Assembly: GCA_020058355.1 (NCBI GenBank)
Contig: JAGVEG010000043.1
Location: 1 to 10,901, forward strand
Source of the DNA: Candidatus Berkelbacteria bacterium
GTDB taxonomy: Bacteria > Patescibacteriota > UBA1384 > CAILIB01
Length of the DNA: 10,901 bases
Direction of reading: 5' to 3'
Positions 2,509-8,424 of this stretch are shown here, piece after piece. Each line of letters begins with the position of its first letter. Position 1 is the stretch's first letter. The notes beneath the pieces are model-generated. The model saw nothing but the letters and a program-made list of their open reading frames with translations, did not search any database and had not been told where the DNA came from. The translations under genes and the position numbers were made by a program.

Positions 2509-2855
2509 TGGCTACTGCATACGTTCACAACCTCCGCGTTCGTCGCACCATTCGTGCTCGCGCTCGTATTGCGGACAATCAGTCAATCCCACGTCTTCAC
2601 GTTAATCGTAGCCTTCGTCACATTAGTGCACAGGTTATCGATGACCAGAAGGGTATTACCCTTGCTGCAGCTTCAGACATTGCTATGACAACTGGTACCA
2701 AGACTGAGCGTGCCGCTCAGATTGGTGAAATGGTTGCAAAGGCAGCGTTGGCAGCTGGTGTAACTGCTGTACGATTTGACCGCGGTTCTGCAAAGTACCA
2801 TGGTCGTGTCGCAGCCGTGGCTGAGGCAGCTCGGGCTGCTGGTCTAACGTTCTAA
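2508..2855 (+). CDS. rplR: Ribosomal protein L18
   Basis: 115-residue uL18, which binds 5S rRNA with L5 in the central protuberance. Conserved blocks are [20 protein letters not shown] (27-46), [10 protein letters not shown] (48-57) and the C-terminal [20 protein letters not shown] (90-109), with AGLTF at the end. The arginine-rich N-terminus is the typical rRNA-binding tail. The start overlaps the rplF stop in a TAATG arrangement, so translation is most likely coupled by termination and re-initiation. It ends 9 nt before rpsE. Confidence 0.97.
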
Positions 2856-2864
2856 CGGTCCATT

Positions 2865-3341
2865 ATGCGCCCTCCACGTAACGCCCCAACAGCTGAAGAG
2901 CAGGTTCGTCCTGAATTTGAAGAGACTACCGTTGAGATCAACCGTATTACCCGTGTGGTAAAGGGTGGTCGCCGTATGCGTTTCCGCGCCCTTGTGGTTG
3001 TTGGAAACCGTGACGGAAAGGTAGGAGTAGGAGTTGCAAAGGCAAGCGAAGTACAGCTTGCAGTACAAAAGGCTTCAGCTGCTGCAAAGCGCAAGCTGGT
3101 TACTGTTGATCTGACTGCTGCTCGCTCTATTGCTCACGAAGTGCAGGCTACCTACGGTAGTAGCACCGTGCTCCTGAAGCCAGCTGGAATTGGTACTTCT
3201 TTGATCGCCGGTGGTTCCGCTCGTTCGGTACTTTCACTGGTTGGTGTTGAGAACGTCCTTTCCAAGAGTCTTGGCTCAAACAATAAGATGAACGTAGTGA
3301 TGGCAACCCTTGCCGCACTCGCTCAGCTTCGTACTAAGTAA
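2865..3341 (+). CDS. rpsE: Ribosomal protein S5
   Basis: 158-residue uS5, a 30S protein at the mRNA entry channel that affects decoding fidelity and helicase activity. Motifs include INRITRVVKGGRRMRFRALV (26-44), VGNRDGKVGVGVAKASEV (46-63), LLKPAGIGTSLIAGGSAR (103-120) and the end SNNKMNVVMATLAAL. The N-terminal part before residue 25 is an acidic, proline-rich extension (PPRNAPTAEEQVRPEFEE). Start at 2865 is preceded by cggtccatt, again 9 nt and with no Shine-Dalgarno. The next gene is rplO after 9 nt: rpmD (L30), which stands here in most bacteria, is absent. Confidence 0.97.
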   Translation: MRPPRNAPTAEEQVRPEFEETTVEINRITRVVKGGRRMRFRALVVVGNRDGKVGVGVAKASEVQLAVQKASAAAKRKLVTVDLTAARSIAHEVQATYGSSTVLLKPAGIGTSLIAGGSARSVLSLVGVENVLSKSLGSNNKMNVVMATLAALAQLRTK

Positions 3342-3350
3342 TCAACGGCT

Positions 3351-3764
3351 ATGCGACTTCATGATCTGATCGCTGCACCACATAAGTCCCGCCGTCGCGT
3401 GGGCCGTGGTATTGCAGCTGGCCAGGGTAAGACCGCTGGCCGCGGTACCAAGGGTCAAAAGGCTCGTACCGGCGCTAACTCCAACATTCCTCGCGGATTC
3501 GTTGGTGGCGCAACCAGTTTTATGCAGAAACTCCCGAAGCTTAAGGGCTTCACAAGTCATCGTGTAAAGCCAGTTGCACTCAATAGTGACCGTATTCGTC
3601 AGTTCTTTGACGCTGAGGAAACCATTACTCTGCACGACCTCGTCCTTCGCGGACTTGTTGACGACACCGAAGCTCTCCAGGGCATCAAGATCGTTGGCGA
3701 CAAGACCGGCCTCAAGATTGAGGAAAGCCCACTCCTGACCGTTAGCGGTAAGAAAGAGGCCTAA
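3351..3764 (+). CDS. rplO: Ribosomal protein L15, short C-terminus
   Basis: 137-residue uL15, a 50S protein whose extended glycine-rich N-terminal arm threads into 23S rRNA. The arm is plain: HKSRRRVGRGIAAGQGKTAG and RGTKGQKART (11-40), then IPRGFVGGATSFMQKLPKLKGF. The C-terminal globular part goes through GIKIVGDKTGLK (111-122) but then ends in EESPLLTVSGKKEA. The usual last helix (pattern FS..A...IE.AGG) is not recognisable, so the protein appears slightly truncated relative to the family's ~145 residues. It is the last gene before the terminator at 3791 and so closes this transcription unit. Spacer from rpsE is 9 nt. Confidence 0.96.
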   Translation: MRLHDLIAAPHKSRRRVGRGIAAGQGKTAGRGTKGQKARTGANSNIPRGFVGGATSFMQKLPKLKGFTSHRVKPVALNSDRIRQFFDAEETITLHDLVLRGLVDDTEALQGIKIVGDKTGLKIEESPLLTVSGKKEA

Positions 3765-3790
3765 GCCTTCTTGATTCGGACAAAAGAATA

Positions 3791-3825
3791 CCGCCCTTCC
3801 CCAGAAATGGGGGAGGGCGGTTTTT
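3791..3825 (+). terminator. Strong intrinsic terminator after rplO
   Basis: A 12-bp stem pairs 3791-3802 (ccgcccttcccc) with 3809-3820 (gggggagggcgg), with a single G-U pair, around a 6-nt loop (agaaat). It is followed immediately by five Ts at 3821-3825. This is a textbook rho-independent terminator for the + strand, 26 nt past the rplO stop. It ends the ribosomal run at a point where spc operons normally continue into secY. The minus-strand gene ends at 3836, so the hairpin could also stop transcription from that side, but the minus-strand tail (tattcttttg) is only moderately T-rich. Confidence 0.92.
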
Positions 3826-3835
3826 AGTGTACCGA

Positions 3836-4582
3836 TTAAGTGTTGTAAGCTCGTAACACTCTTTCCATAAACGCCAACTTTTTATCTGGATCGTTAGGAA
3901 AATAATGCTCGTAATAAGCAAGGCAACCTTGTATCTTCAGGCAGAGAAGTAGATTCCCGGCTTCCTGCGGTGGTGCAGCTAAGAATGGGTCAGGTAGAAA
4001 AGAGCTCTCATCGCTACGCCATTTCATATGCAGTATCCTCTGGTTCTTGATCTCATTACCTTGATAATGTGCTTCTAGATGACCTCGCATATCTTCAAGG
4101 ATACCACTATACAAGTTGCCAACTACAATTCTAAGCAACTCGCCCTCGAACGAATATACCCTAAGTTCCTCTTTAGCATACTCTTTAGGGGTTTCATTTG
4201 TTGAACTAGTACCATTAGTAAGATATTTCCAAGCATGGTTTAGCTCGTGGAGCATAAAAACACCATCCATTATGTCACCTCCGCTATTCTCTGATGTGTG
4301 AAGGACTTTTTGTTCGCTGTCATATGCCCAGTCCCGCATATGGTTTCCAAGGCGTTTTCGATCGCTTGGAAGGAGTGGGAGTAGCCAAAAACTCTCGCCC
4401 TCCACAACGGCATTTTCTGTGGCAACAATGCTTATGCCATTTAAAGATGCTAACTTCATGTTTGCTGTGGCAAAGTTCAAGAGAAGCCACGCGTGCTGAT
4501 TGTTAGTTTTTTCACAAATCAATCTAGCTGCAGAAAGTAGTGCTTCCATTCTGCTTTTTCTTTCACCAATATTCATATACAT
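3836..4582 (-). CDS. Putative HExxH metallopeptidase-like protein, antisense insert
   Basis: 248-residue protein of no family I can name. The key feature is M110-LHELNHAWKY: a HELNH motif at 112-116 that fits the zinc-binding HExxH of gluzincin-type peptidases. Glutamates at 138-139, 146 and 148 in the segment KEELRVYSFEGELL are candidates for the third zinc ligand, spaced as in minigluzincin-like proteins. There is no clear signal peptide or transmembrane segment, so it looks cytosolic. The start at 4582 is supported by GGGAG on the minus strand 7 nt upstream; Met3 is an alternative. Arginines near the start use AGA (R8, R11, R20), and sampled lines are 35-40% GC, unlike the CGT/CGC-rich ribosomal genes around it. 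It lies opposite in strand to everything else here. Peptidase activity is inferred from the motif only; acquisition by transfer is likely. Confidence 0.8.
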   Translation of the reverse strand: MYMNIGERKSRMEALLSAARLICEKTNNQHAWLLLNFATANMKLASLNGISIVATENAVVEGESFWLLPLLPSDRKRLGNHMRDWAYDSEQKVLHTSENSGGDIMDGVFMLHELNHAWKYLTNGTSSTNETPKEYAKEELRVYSFEGELLRIVVGNLYSGILEDMRGHLEAHYQGNEIKNQRILHMKWRSDESSFLPDPFLAAPPQEAGNLLLCLKIQGCLAYYEHYFPNDPDKKLAFMERVLRAYNT

Positions 4583-4589
4583 TTTTGTA

Positions 4590-4594
4590 CTCCC
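4590..4594 (-). promoter_or_regulatory. Shine-Dalgarno site of the antisense gene
   Basis: On the minus strand the sequence reads GGGAG, then 7 nt (tacaaaa), then ATG at 4582. This is a well-placed ribosome binding site and decides the start of the HELNH gene. Most native starts in the window lack such a motif, which makes this one stand out. Confidence 0.6.
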
Positions 4595-4637
4595 AAGCTC
4601 TTTCTAAGAACATCAATAGGTCTGTGCTCTTAGTATT

Positions 4638-4666
4638 CTTTAACCATAACTTTTAATCAGTGTCAA
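4638..4666 (-). promoter_or_regulatory. Possible promoter for the antisense gene
   Basis: A perfect -35 hexamer TTGACA lies on the minus strand (tgtcaa at 4661-4666). A 17-nt spacer leads to TTAAAG at 4638-4643, which matches the -10 consensus at only three of six positions. The start codon is about 56 nt downstream. The -35 and spacing are persuasive and the -10 is weak; no start site can be proven from sequence. Confidence 0.35.
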
Positions 4667-4780
4667 AAGGCTTCATGAATCTGGATGTTCCATGTCGTCA
4701 TCCTAGCATCGGCACGGCTAATTGCCCAAACCCCAAAAACCCCGTAGGCTACAGCTGTCTGATTCGTAAGTGAATGACCT

Positions 4781-6088
4781 GTGGCTAAGAAGCAAAACCT
4801 CTTCCTGCAATTTATCAAGCTTCCAGAGATGCGGCGCAAGCTCTATATTGTGCTGTTCTTGGTAGGCATCGTGCAGCTGATCAACGTTATTCCAGTTCCT
4901 GGAGTTGATCGTGACGCGCTCAAGCAGTTCCTGACGGATAGCCCTGCTACCGCATTGTTGAACGTCTACACGGGTGGAGGACTTACGAATTTCTCCATTG
5001 CCTTACTTGGCGTTGGTCCATACATTACCGCCTCAATCGTTTTCCAGCTGCTTACCCATGTCATTCCTCAACTTGAAACCTTGAGTAAGGATGGTGAAGT
5101 TGGCCGCCGCAAGATCGCTCAGTATACCCGCCTGGCTTCAGTGCCATTCGGTATCATTCAAGGTCTAGGAATGCTTACCTACCTGAAGAACGCTGGCGTT
5201 TATACGGATTGGGGAGTGTGGCCAATTACGTTTACGCTCATTACAGTTATTGCTACCAGTGTACTGCTCATGTGGATTGGTGAGCTCATTACTGAGTATG
5301 GAATTGGTAACGGTCTTTCGCTCTTGGTTACTATTGGTGTGGTTTCAACCTTCCCACAGTCGATCAGTAACACTCTTGCTGTCTATGAAACGGGAGTTAC
5401 TACTGATCAACTGATTAAGCTCGGTGTCTTTGCGGTTGTTGCTGCAATATTGTTCATGGGTATTATCTGGGTAACAGAGGCAGTGCGGGAGATTCCTATT
5501 ACCTATGCACGCCGTTTGCGTAGCGGTGCTGCTCAGGAAATGGGAGGGGGTAATGTTACCTCTGTTCTTCCTTTGAAGCTGAATGCTGGTGGTGTAATCC
5601 CAATCATTTTTGCGGTAAGTATGCTGCAATTCCCATTGGTGGTTGCTGAGTTTATGCGCCAGTCAGCTAATGAGCGGACTCGCATTTTCGGGGGAGAGAT
5701 TGCGGATTTCCTCAACAACAACTGGATCTACGCGGCGCTCTACGCGCTATTGGTTATTGCCTTCACCTTCTTCTACGCGACGATTATCTTCCAGCCAAAG
5801 GATCTTGCGGAGAATCTGCAGAAGCAAAGCGGCTTCATTCCGGGCATTCGCCCTGGCACTGACACCGAAAAGTATCTCGGAGGGGTGGTCATGCGTCTTA
5901 CGGTGCTGGGTGCTATCTTCCTTGCGGTTATTGCGGTGCTCCCAGTGATTATTCCAAGTATTACTGATGTACAGACCCTGCGCCTTGGTGGAACGAGTTT
6001 GCTTATTGCGGTTTCCGTTGTACTTGAGATTATCCGTCAGGCACGATCACAGGTGATCATGCGCTCGTATAACCAATATCTGGCGTAA
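4781..6088 (+). CDS. secY: Preprotein translocase subunit SecY
   Basis: 435-residue channel subunit of the SecYEG translocon, which moves unfolded proteins across or into the cytoplasmic membrane. Ten hydrophobic segments can be traced, the first at about 20-39. Signature blocks are GVGPYITASIVFQLL (77-91), YGIGNGLSLL (173-182), LPLKLNAGGVIPIIFA (263-278) and the cytosolic loop GFIPGIRPG (351-359) with GTSLLI (404-409). The start is GTG at 4781, giving MAKKQNLFLQFIKLPEMRRK. There is no strong Shine-Dalgarno before it. It begins a second transcription block downstream of the terminator and insert, and its TAA is followed directly by the adk GTG with no gap. Confidence 0.97.
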   Translation: MAKKQNLFLQFIKLPEMRRKLYIVLFLVGIVQLINVIPVPGVDRDALKQFLTDSPATALLNVYTGGGLTNFSIALLGVGPYITASIVFQLLTHVIPQLETLSKDGEVGRRKIAQYTRLASVPFGIIQGLGMLTYLKNAGVYTDWGVWPITFTLITVIATSVLLMWIGELITEYGIGNGLSLLVTIGVVSTFPQSISNTLAVYETGVTTDQLIKLGVFAVVAAILFMGIIWVTEAVREIPITYARRLRSGAAQEMGGGNVTSVLPLKLNAGGVIPIIFAVSMLQFPLVVAEFMRQSANERTRIFGGEIADFLNNNWIYAALYALLVIAFTFFYATIIFQPKDLAENLQKQSGFIPGIRPGTDTEKYLGGVVMRLTVLGAIFLAVIAVLPVIIPSITDVQTLRLGGTSLLIAVSVVLEIIRQARSQVIMRSYNQYLA

Positions 6089-7488: not shown

Positions 7489-7878
7489 ATGGAAAACTTC
7501 CCTCCCCACTTACTGGGGCTCGCTCTCGTGGTTTCTCTCGCGATTTCCGCTCTGTTGCTGGACCATAATCTCAAAATGAAGACTTGGCGAATTACTCCAC
7601 TGGCACATGCACGGTATGTGGTGCAGGCTACTGCTCAGGCAGTTGCTGTAATAATCACTCTTATCTTCAAAGCCAACAGCTACCCGGTTATTGCGTATTC
7701 GTACCTTGGGGCGCTAGTAATCGCCTTGTGGGCGGTATTTTATAACCACCGCATGTCGTTCACAAAGCGCTACCCGCGCCAACTCGCTGACTTCGGGGTT
7801 GTAGCAATGCTACTTGCTTCCCTTCCGCTGTTCGCTAACCCTGATTACTTCCCGGCACTAGCCTTTCGGAATCCCTAA
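7489..7878 (+). CDS. Unrecognised small membrane protein (4 TM segments)
   Basis: 129-residue hydrophobic protein with four predicted membrane spans at about 8-25, 42-60, 66-86 and 101-116, joined by short basic loops (KMKTWR at 30-34, YNHRMSFTKRYPR at 85-97). I do not recognise a family, and no catalytic motif is evident. It lies on the + strand between map and infA, where those genes are usually adjacent, 42 nt after map and 135 nt before infA. The basic loops after the first and third spans suggest both termini face outward by the positive-inside rule. A purine run gaaagg at 7471-7476 is rather far (12 nt) to serve as Shine-Dalgarno. Codon use is not obviously foreign. It could be a lineage-specific envelope protein. 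Confidence 0.75.
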   Translation: MENFPPHLLGLALVVSLAISALLLDHNLKMKTWRITPLAHARYVVQATAQAVAVIITLIFKANSYPVIAYSYLGALVIALWAVFYNHRMSFTKRYPRQLADFGVVAMLLASLPLFANPDYFPALAFRNP

Positions 7879-8304: not shown

Positions 8305-8310
8305 CCATCC

Positions 8311-8424
8311 ATGAAGGTCTCCGCATCCGTTAAGCCTCGGTGTCTCAAGTGTAAAGTAATCCGCCGTCACGGCCGGGTTATGGTCATTTGTGAAAACCCA
8401 CGGCACAAGCAGCGTCAAGGCTAA
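8311..8424 (+). CDS. rpmJ: Ribosomal protein L36
   Basis: 37-residue bL36, the smallest 50S protein, which binds 23S rRNA near the L7/L12 stalk base. Translation begins [20 protein letters not shown] and ends [12 protein letters not shown]. The zinc ligands are C11, C14, C27 and H32, the standard C-x2-C-x12-C-x4-H pattern, so this is the zinc-binding (C+) form. Length is exactly typical. It lies 6 nt after infA and 10 nt before rpsM, the conserved position. Confidence 0.97.

Follow-up and report, generated by a model that had tools for sequence, protein, structure and literature searches.

What is a gene read against the operon doing between rplO and secY? The two are core genes, normally adjacent, and their junction is among the most conserved gene adjacencies in bacteria. 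The stretch of DNA analysed here (the window) is one whole contig, 10,901 bases long, from a draft assembly of Candidatus Berkelbacteria bacterium (803 kb in 115 contigs, 84.6% complete). Its plus strand carries rplN (truncated), rplX, rplE, rpsN, rpsH, rplF, rplR, rpsE and rplO, and, beyond an insert, secY, adk, map, a 129-aa membrane ORF, infA, rpsM, rpsK, rpsD and rpoA. These names come from reading the translations, with SecY matched in Pfam and L15 matched only below the Pfam cut-off. The best 80 relatives of SecY were 41-47% identical to it, and came from Patescibacteria groups or carried no group name, from which we take the organism to belong to the Patescibacteria (CPR). Between the end of rplO and the start of secY lies a gap of 1016 bp that holds one minus-strand ORF (Table 1), whose protein appears as 246 aa in its database record.

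Table 1. Coordinates of features at the rplO-secY junction, numbered from the first base of the window.
Feature	Position	Strand	Basis or remark
rplO (uL15), last gene before the insert	3351..3764	+	Pfam Ribosomal_L27A below cut-off (18.1 vs 21.5 bits); tblastn to relatives
Strong hairpin with T-run, between rplO and the inserted gene	3790..3821	.	Terminator scan; folding z-scores
Inserted gene for HExxH protein, 248 aa	3836..4582	-	ORF list; family profile match; alignment
Glu139, proposed third zinc ligand	4166..4168	-	Alignment; 22 residues between His116 and Glu139
HELNH, residues 112-116: two proposed zinc His and proposed catalytic Glu113	4235..4249	-	Sequence; alignment
Divergent intergenic stretch of 198 bp, inserted gene/secY	4583..4780	.	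Promoters of both expected there
secY, intact, GTG start	4781..6088	+	Pfam SecY 8.2e-97

To place this arrangement, the junction was read in related genomes. The host's class was represented by 55 genomes, the host's own included; secY was matched in 39 of 41 genomes, and 30 of these became loci, counting the window. The junction counts cover loci with a callable L15, which leaves out 4 of 29 class relatives (L018, L019, L025 and L033) and 2 of 80 other Patescibacteria loci (L039 and L044); gene starts were assigned automatically, and gaps may be wrong by a few codons. The gap was -14 to 114 bp in 24 of 25 class relatives and 637 bp in the remaining one (L015), with a median of 19.5 bp when the window is counted in, and the three relatives from the host's taxonomic family with both genes had gaps of 5, 30 and 34 bp. 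An antisense ORF of at least 100 aa was present in none of the gaps of the 25 class relatives with both genes called, and among 104 Patescibacteria junctions only the window had one. A preliminary description of the locus, made by reading its sequence, had claimed that an antisense gene splits rplO from secY and had proposed checking whether secY directly follows rplO in relatives; the junctions bear out the split, and they rule out that the same gene sits at the same place in all relatives.

Extra ORFs of at least 100 aa, in either orientation, were found in the gap at 3 of the 104 junctions, the window included. In L015 (reverse strand 2740-3440), a plus-strand ORF of 216 codons reads by eye as what we take to be a nitroreductase-like protein, and in L095, the only such locus among 78 further Patescibacteria loci, ORFs of this length lie in a gap of 572 bp. 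These other inserts indicate that the rplO-secY junction accepts genes, and the window shows that it can be opened in the host lineage with both genes retained. Insertions into this ribosomal cluster are unusual but have precedents: for Gammaproteobacteria and Bacilli, genes inserted between its operons, replacement of rpsN2 type within spc and, in one species, relocation of secY outside spc have been reported (PMC8046335). In contrast to the case described here, the events noted from that study include no antisense HExxH gene at rplO-secY. In the open-licence literature, we found no description of an insertion at this junction or of the HExxH family considered below.

The insert is known from a single contig, and in its first ∼190 bases rplN is cut short by what resembles another gene in reverse orientation, as might be expected if a foreign fragment had been joined into a draft assembly. 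Within positions 1-190, the N-terminal part of rplN is not encoded, and the reverse strand is open through 66 codons; the truncated rplN ORF shows homology only from codon 62-66 onward in the 15 matches listed, and the host genome contains this stretch only once. This contig end is either a false join, which is the likely reading, or a genuine rearrangement cutting rplN. However, a false origin of the insert would need two bad joins, both intergenic, that left rplO and secY whole and in native order and orientation, and the insert itself has no second copy in the host genome. Since the doubtful end is 3.6 kb away and both flanking genes are whole, we do not think that the insert is an artefact, an explanation that we judge very improbable.

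For composition, the reference was a set of 115 ORFs, picked mechanically and each 150 aa or longer, from ∼151 kb of the host genome. The inserted gene has a GC content of 42.3%, compared with a mean of 50.5% (5th lowest of the 115, 2.0 sd under); by GC3 it ranks 10th from the bottom (1.4 sd) and by codon score 9th (1.6 sd). AGA and AGG make up 7 of its 13 Arg codons, compared with 10.7% in the background ORFs. Its composition is thus atypical, not unique, in agreement with the preliminary account of an AT-richer gene using AGA codons. The codon score by itself is no proof of coding, because the inserted gene (-0.042) scores slightly lower than its own antisense reading (-0.018); antisense readings of other host genes average 0.011.

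The same account had noted no obvious mobility gene nearby, and reading the ORF list of the 10.9 kb window revealed none. No tRNA was found in the window, nor any Rfam match at gathering score. The borders of the insert carry no direct repeat, and integrase, target duplication and terminal inverted repeats, the features of a mobile element, were not found for it. A 9-bp inverted pair (3783-3791/4633-4641) was rejected as an insertion scar, since by our own estimate chance alone would produce such a pair in a stretch as long as this one. Transfer is suggested by composition and by the patchy distribution described below, for which an old, fast-evolving gene lost in many relatives is the alternative.

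Relatives of the inserted-gene protein were hard to see. A single-sequence search of about 5.8 billion (5.77 billion) sequences returned only the protein itself, as did further single-sequence searches, and such a search detected a relative in 0 of 4 genomes of the host's taxonomic family. The protein had no match above cut-off in Pfam, NCBIfam, PHROG, PADLOC or PDB; matches to Pfam ORC1_wHTH (E 0.043) and to a PHROG acetyltransferase (E 0.19) were rejected as weak. When 61 related genomes were scanned loosely, seven faint matches other than the protein itself turned up (E 0.005-0.25). Five were examined. Four of these (L002, L003, L005 and L006) are uninterrupted frames, 320-354 aa long, that carry HExxH as well as a hydrophobic stretch near the N-terminus; L004, the fifth, is not of this kind. 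A profile built from the first alignment found matches in 7 of the 55 class genomes (E <= 1) and, across the phylum, in 17 of 286 genomes (E <= 0.01). An 11-row core alignment then gave matches in 22 of 379 phylum genomes and 20 of 314 genera at E <= 0.001, a count that includes the host genome, 8 seed-giving genomes and weak matches, and in 16 of 379 at E <= 1e-9. Members outside the seed set include G158 (5.9e-61), which shares 72% identity with a seed, G345 (7.4e-17) and G323 (6.1e-28), which is interrupted by an internal stop. Searching the database with the 11 rows added three more proteins, two of them near copies of existing rows, while scans of viral contigs with the relatives and a plasmid search with L131 found no relative. 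Pfam and PHROG scans of 11 members gave no convincing match (best Pfam E 0.0045, best PHROG E 0.075).

To evaluate whether the window belongs with these proteins, a profile of 10 relatives was built without it and run against 13,247 sequences, comprising 6123 ORFs, their reversals, the inserted-gene protein and 1000 shuffles of that protein. The inserted-gene protein scored 68.0 bits (E 5.5e-19) over residues 7-181, and no shuffled or reversed sequence was found at E <= 1 (0 of 1000 shuffles). The 10 seeds were chosen for holding HExxH and came from searches begun with the window, which makes the test independent of the window's letters, not of seed choice. Residues 105-150 contribute most of the profile score, giving 39 bits on their own, and 35.1 bits remained when the HExxH helix (residues 108-120) was masked. 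Residues 1-104 gave 14 bits (E 0.016), masking residues 105-150 left 10.9 bits (E 0.15), and residues 151-248 gave no match to the family profile. Among 36 other HExxH ORFs run as a control, the top two were an interrupted family member (L150) and the window copy, and the rest reached no more than 19.8 bits. Local hhalign paired the protein with the family at a probability of 98% over 212 columns.

The leave-out, shuffle, mask and HExxH-ORF tests together indicate that the family is real, that it is hard to see and that the inserted gene is coding, the last point following also from the window-free match itself. On this profile evidence, the inserted gene belongs, as a divergent member, to an HExxH family with a patchy distribution in Patescibacteria, a membership that was not visible to the sequence-only reading behind the preliminary description. 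An apparent orphan thus becomes a family member, with up to 22 of 379 phylum genomes carrying one, and offers an entry point to proteins that may be exported by Patescibacteria.

The aligned set comprised 23 members, that is, the leave-out profile matches down to E 4.9e-6, minus L150 and the window duplicate, plus the very weak L005; it includes three weak members and omits L160, L161, L136, L133, L139, L135, L132 and L138. His112, Glu113 and His116 are each kept in 22 of the 23, and Glu139 in all 23. No other residues of the alignment are as well conserved as HExxH and Glu139, Gly49 being kept in 16 and Leu150 in 14. Conservation of HExxH is partly built in, because the set was drawn from profile matches and profiles favour HExxH. 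These counts uphold the earlier reading of HELNH followed by a plausible downstream Glu, and they separate the two ligands which that reading had offered, Glu139 being retained and Glu146, kept in 12 of 23, losing ground. Glu-zincins are defined by a Glu as the third zinc ligand (PMC3890501). HExxH followed, 22 residues on, by an invariant Glu is an arrangement of their kind, and Glu139 is thus the better candidate. We infer a putative gluzincin-like zinc peptidase with His112, His116 and Glu139 as ligands and Glu113 as the base.

Structure prediction was too poor to judge the metal site, with AlphaFold2 giving a mean pLDDT of 35.4 for the protein alone and 40.4 with 4 sequences. In the weak second model (pLDDT 40.4), HELNH lies in a helix at 102-123 and Glu139 in one at 132-154. 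Foldseek found no meaningful fold match (best E 4.0), and its list was set aside. The family profile found nothing under E 0.35 among PDB sequences; five PDB matches at E 0.35-1.5, one of them to a snake venom metalloproteinase along the HExxH segment, were not used.

The protein has HExxH followed by Glu, like the minigluzincins to which the preliminary description had likened it and like SprT/WLM-type peptidases; Wss1/WLM, SprT and minigluzincins are grouped together in PMC4559962. In contrast to these, its domain is ∼240 aa long, it had no match to SprT-like (PF10263) in the Pfam scan, and hhalign against SprT-like gave 23% over only 37 columns for the family and 1% for the inserted-gene protein. 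A low hhalign value does not exclude a shared fold, since M78 and SprT-like, both known HExxH families, gave only 9% against each other; the family against SecY gave 0.2%. These hhalign comparisons were made in local mode, with sets trimmed to mutually similar sequences (5 of 8 for DUF6782, 9 of 12 for SprT) and a usable ORF from 9 of 12 loci for M78. DUF6782, a putative metallopeptidase (PF20573), also has HExxH, and 1 of 11 family members matched it below threshold (E 0.073); the lowest Pfam E-values among members were for DUF4785_2nd (0.0045) and DUF3920 (0.0076), in one member each. A DUF6782 hit over cut-off was found in only 1 of 145 phylum genomes, not the host's, and hhalign to the weak DUF6782-like ORFs gave 5% over 14 columns; most DUF6782 loci fell below the cut-off and probably belong elsewhere.

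The preliminary description had also suggested a regulator resembling HExxH anti-repressors. Like M78 (ImmA/IrrE), the family has HExxH with a downstream Glu-bearing stretch, and the two aligned over 63 columns at 34%, with 58% and 9% for the halves of the family; this weak likeness is at the level of the shared HExxH superfamily. The inserted-gene protein itself gave 1% in hhalign and no match to Pfam M78 (PF06114) at E <= 1. M78 genes passed the cut-off in 18 of 145 phylum genomes, and the host genome has a sub-threshold match on another contig. M78 peptidases have a repressor substrate encoded by a neighbouring gene, and no repressor gene adjoins the inserted gene, whose neighbours are rplO and secY. 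These results do not support the anti-repressor idea, and by sequence the protein is not SprT-like/minigluzincin, M78 or DUF6782; if the proposed site is right, it would work like a Glu-zincin, with membership in the named families unsupported.

A zincin-like fold could nevertheless be kept for a non-catalytic binding or regulatory role, as in a pseudo-peptidase or an anti-repressor. One member, L157 (G014:C17:10310-11047), lacks HExxH and keeps the Glu, a natural pseudo-enzyme suggesting that the fold may persist without catalysis, and the very fast drift of the family, along with its weak similarity to M78, would fit such a role. On the other hand, HExxH and Glu are both kept in the inserted-gene protein and 21 other aligned members, and the 1% value against M78 and the absence of an adjacent repressor gene apply here too. 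We regard a non-catalytic role as unlikely, and continue with the putative peptidase.

Where the protein would act is suggested by its N-terminus. In 17 of the 23 aligned members, a 15-residue stretch with mean hydropathy of 1.80-3.11 lies within approximately the first 100 residues, as in a signal or anchor; hydropathy was taken on stop-to-stop frames, and a few untranslated residues may be included. In contrast, the inserted-gene protein has no such stretch (peak 15-residue hydropathy 1.11), and a signal was not lost through start choice, since only seven codons separate the ATG from the upstream stop. The feature is also absent from L131, L146, L154, L134 and L137, and, being common, not universal, it was not treated as family-defining. 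L131 and L146 are short leaderless relatives, 72% identical, from two genomes.

The missing signal might also mark a transferred gene that is being lost and is retained by chance at a harmless site. Such decay would be consistent with atypical codon use, the lack of a clear promoter, the long branch of the inserted gene in a tree of 20 rows and the stop codon that interrupts the relative L150. It fits less well with a 248-codon open frame in which HExxH and Glu139 are intact, with a Shine-Dalgarno-like GGGAG 7 bases upstream of the ATG and with the maintenance of a signal-less form elsewhere, in L131 and L146. We therefore hold a decaying remnant to be quite improbable, and a maintained cytoplasmic protein remains the preferred reading.

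No catalogue entry was found for the family (members include P0002, P0004, L121, L126 and L131). In multiple alignments the inserted-gene protein is 13-23% identical to the family, compared with 31% to the fragment P0003 over one fifth of the length. No other member was seen at rplO-secY. By eye, no recurring neighbour was found at 20 loci, two of them at contig ends, and a Pfam scan of 10 neighbours found, among others, a serine recombinase (L164), a subtilase (L166), HSP20 (L171), dnaB (L174) and ychF (L182). The recombinase of L164 (5493-6710; Resolvase, Recombinase and zinc ribbon), divergent from the member and 160 bp from it, was the sole clear mobility gene among the 10 scanned. At L165 (1091-3016), two diverged family copies stand in tandem near genes that we take, by eye, to be for ATP synthase. 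Members at L166, L171 and L178, at least, are antisense to both mapped neighbours. Single-gene cargo working alone would fit both the lack of recurring neighbours and the antisense placements, and rapid evolution of a family that lacks partners suggests that the substrate is a narrow and shifting target. The tree, which left out three weak members (L129, L005 and L159), had good support for 5 of 17 inner branches; it did not place the inserted gene and points to no donor. A wider reading, which we offer tentatively and at less than even chances, is that of a Patescibacteria-centred metallopeptidase family without an entry in the searched catalogues, spread as single-gene cargo and diverging fast enough to leave its members at ∼20% identity, mostly exported or lipid-anchored with a few cytoplasmic members, perhaps acting when cells meet hosts or rivals, and here breaking a highly conserved adjacency.

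How the operon tolerates the insert may depend on the hairpin behind rplO. It has 14 pairs and folding z-scores of -6.25 (plus strand) and -4.48 (minus strand), and lies 15-46 bases past the stop codon of the inserted gene, short of rplO. The terminator scan, which found 2 sites where shuffles lead to an expectation of 1.4, called the hairpin on the plus strand and not on the minus strand, where it is nonetheless a strong fold before a U-rich tail; we infer a two-way terminator. Terminator-like hairpins also occur in the rplO-secY gap of 2 other class loci (L011 and L022) and 6 of 78 others, suggesting that in some relatives transcription may stop after rplO. No good sigma-70 match was seen in 4583-4780. 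The orientation of the inserted gene and the upstream region that it shares, divergently, with secY would suit a locus acting on rplO or secY as an antisense RNA or transcription roadblock, not via its protein. However, the gene overlaps neither neighbour, its transcript would meet the hairpin before rplO, and its protein resembles relatives in other contexts, all of which makes such a role exceedingly improbable.

We consider it probable, by a modest measure, that the locus holds an acquired solitary HExxH gene for a putative cytoplasmic gluzincin-like peptidase, lodged in the rplO-secY gap behind the hairpin. In this account, a solitary gene of the patchy, very fast-evolving Patescibacteria family would have been acquired and would have settled in the intergenic space facing against the operon. 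His112, His116 and Glu139 would hold one zinc and Glu113 would activate water, and the substrate, in the cytoplasm, would be a protein or a peptide. The insert may be tolerated because the strong hairpin would close the transcripts arriving from both sides, that of rplO and the antisense one, and so separate them, and because a promoter of its own, within the 198 bp past the inserted gene, would drive secY.

Two other features of the cluster lie downstream. The infA-rpsM gap (8305-8389) is 85 bp; rpmJ, which is commonly found between these genes, would not fit in it. Between map and infA, the 129-aa membrane ORF (7489-7878) has a sub-threshold match to UPF0014 (E 0.00042, 20.2 bits, cut-off 22.6) and tblastn (E <= 1) found no relative in the loci covered from other genomes. 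In 8 loci with both genes found, the distance between the map and infA matches is 57-129 bp, and the ORF is possibly a second insert in the same ribosomal cluster.
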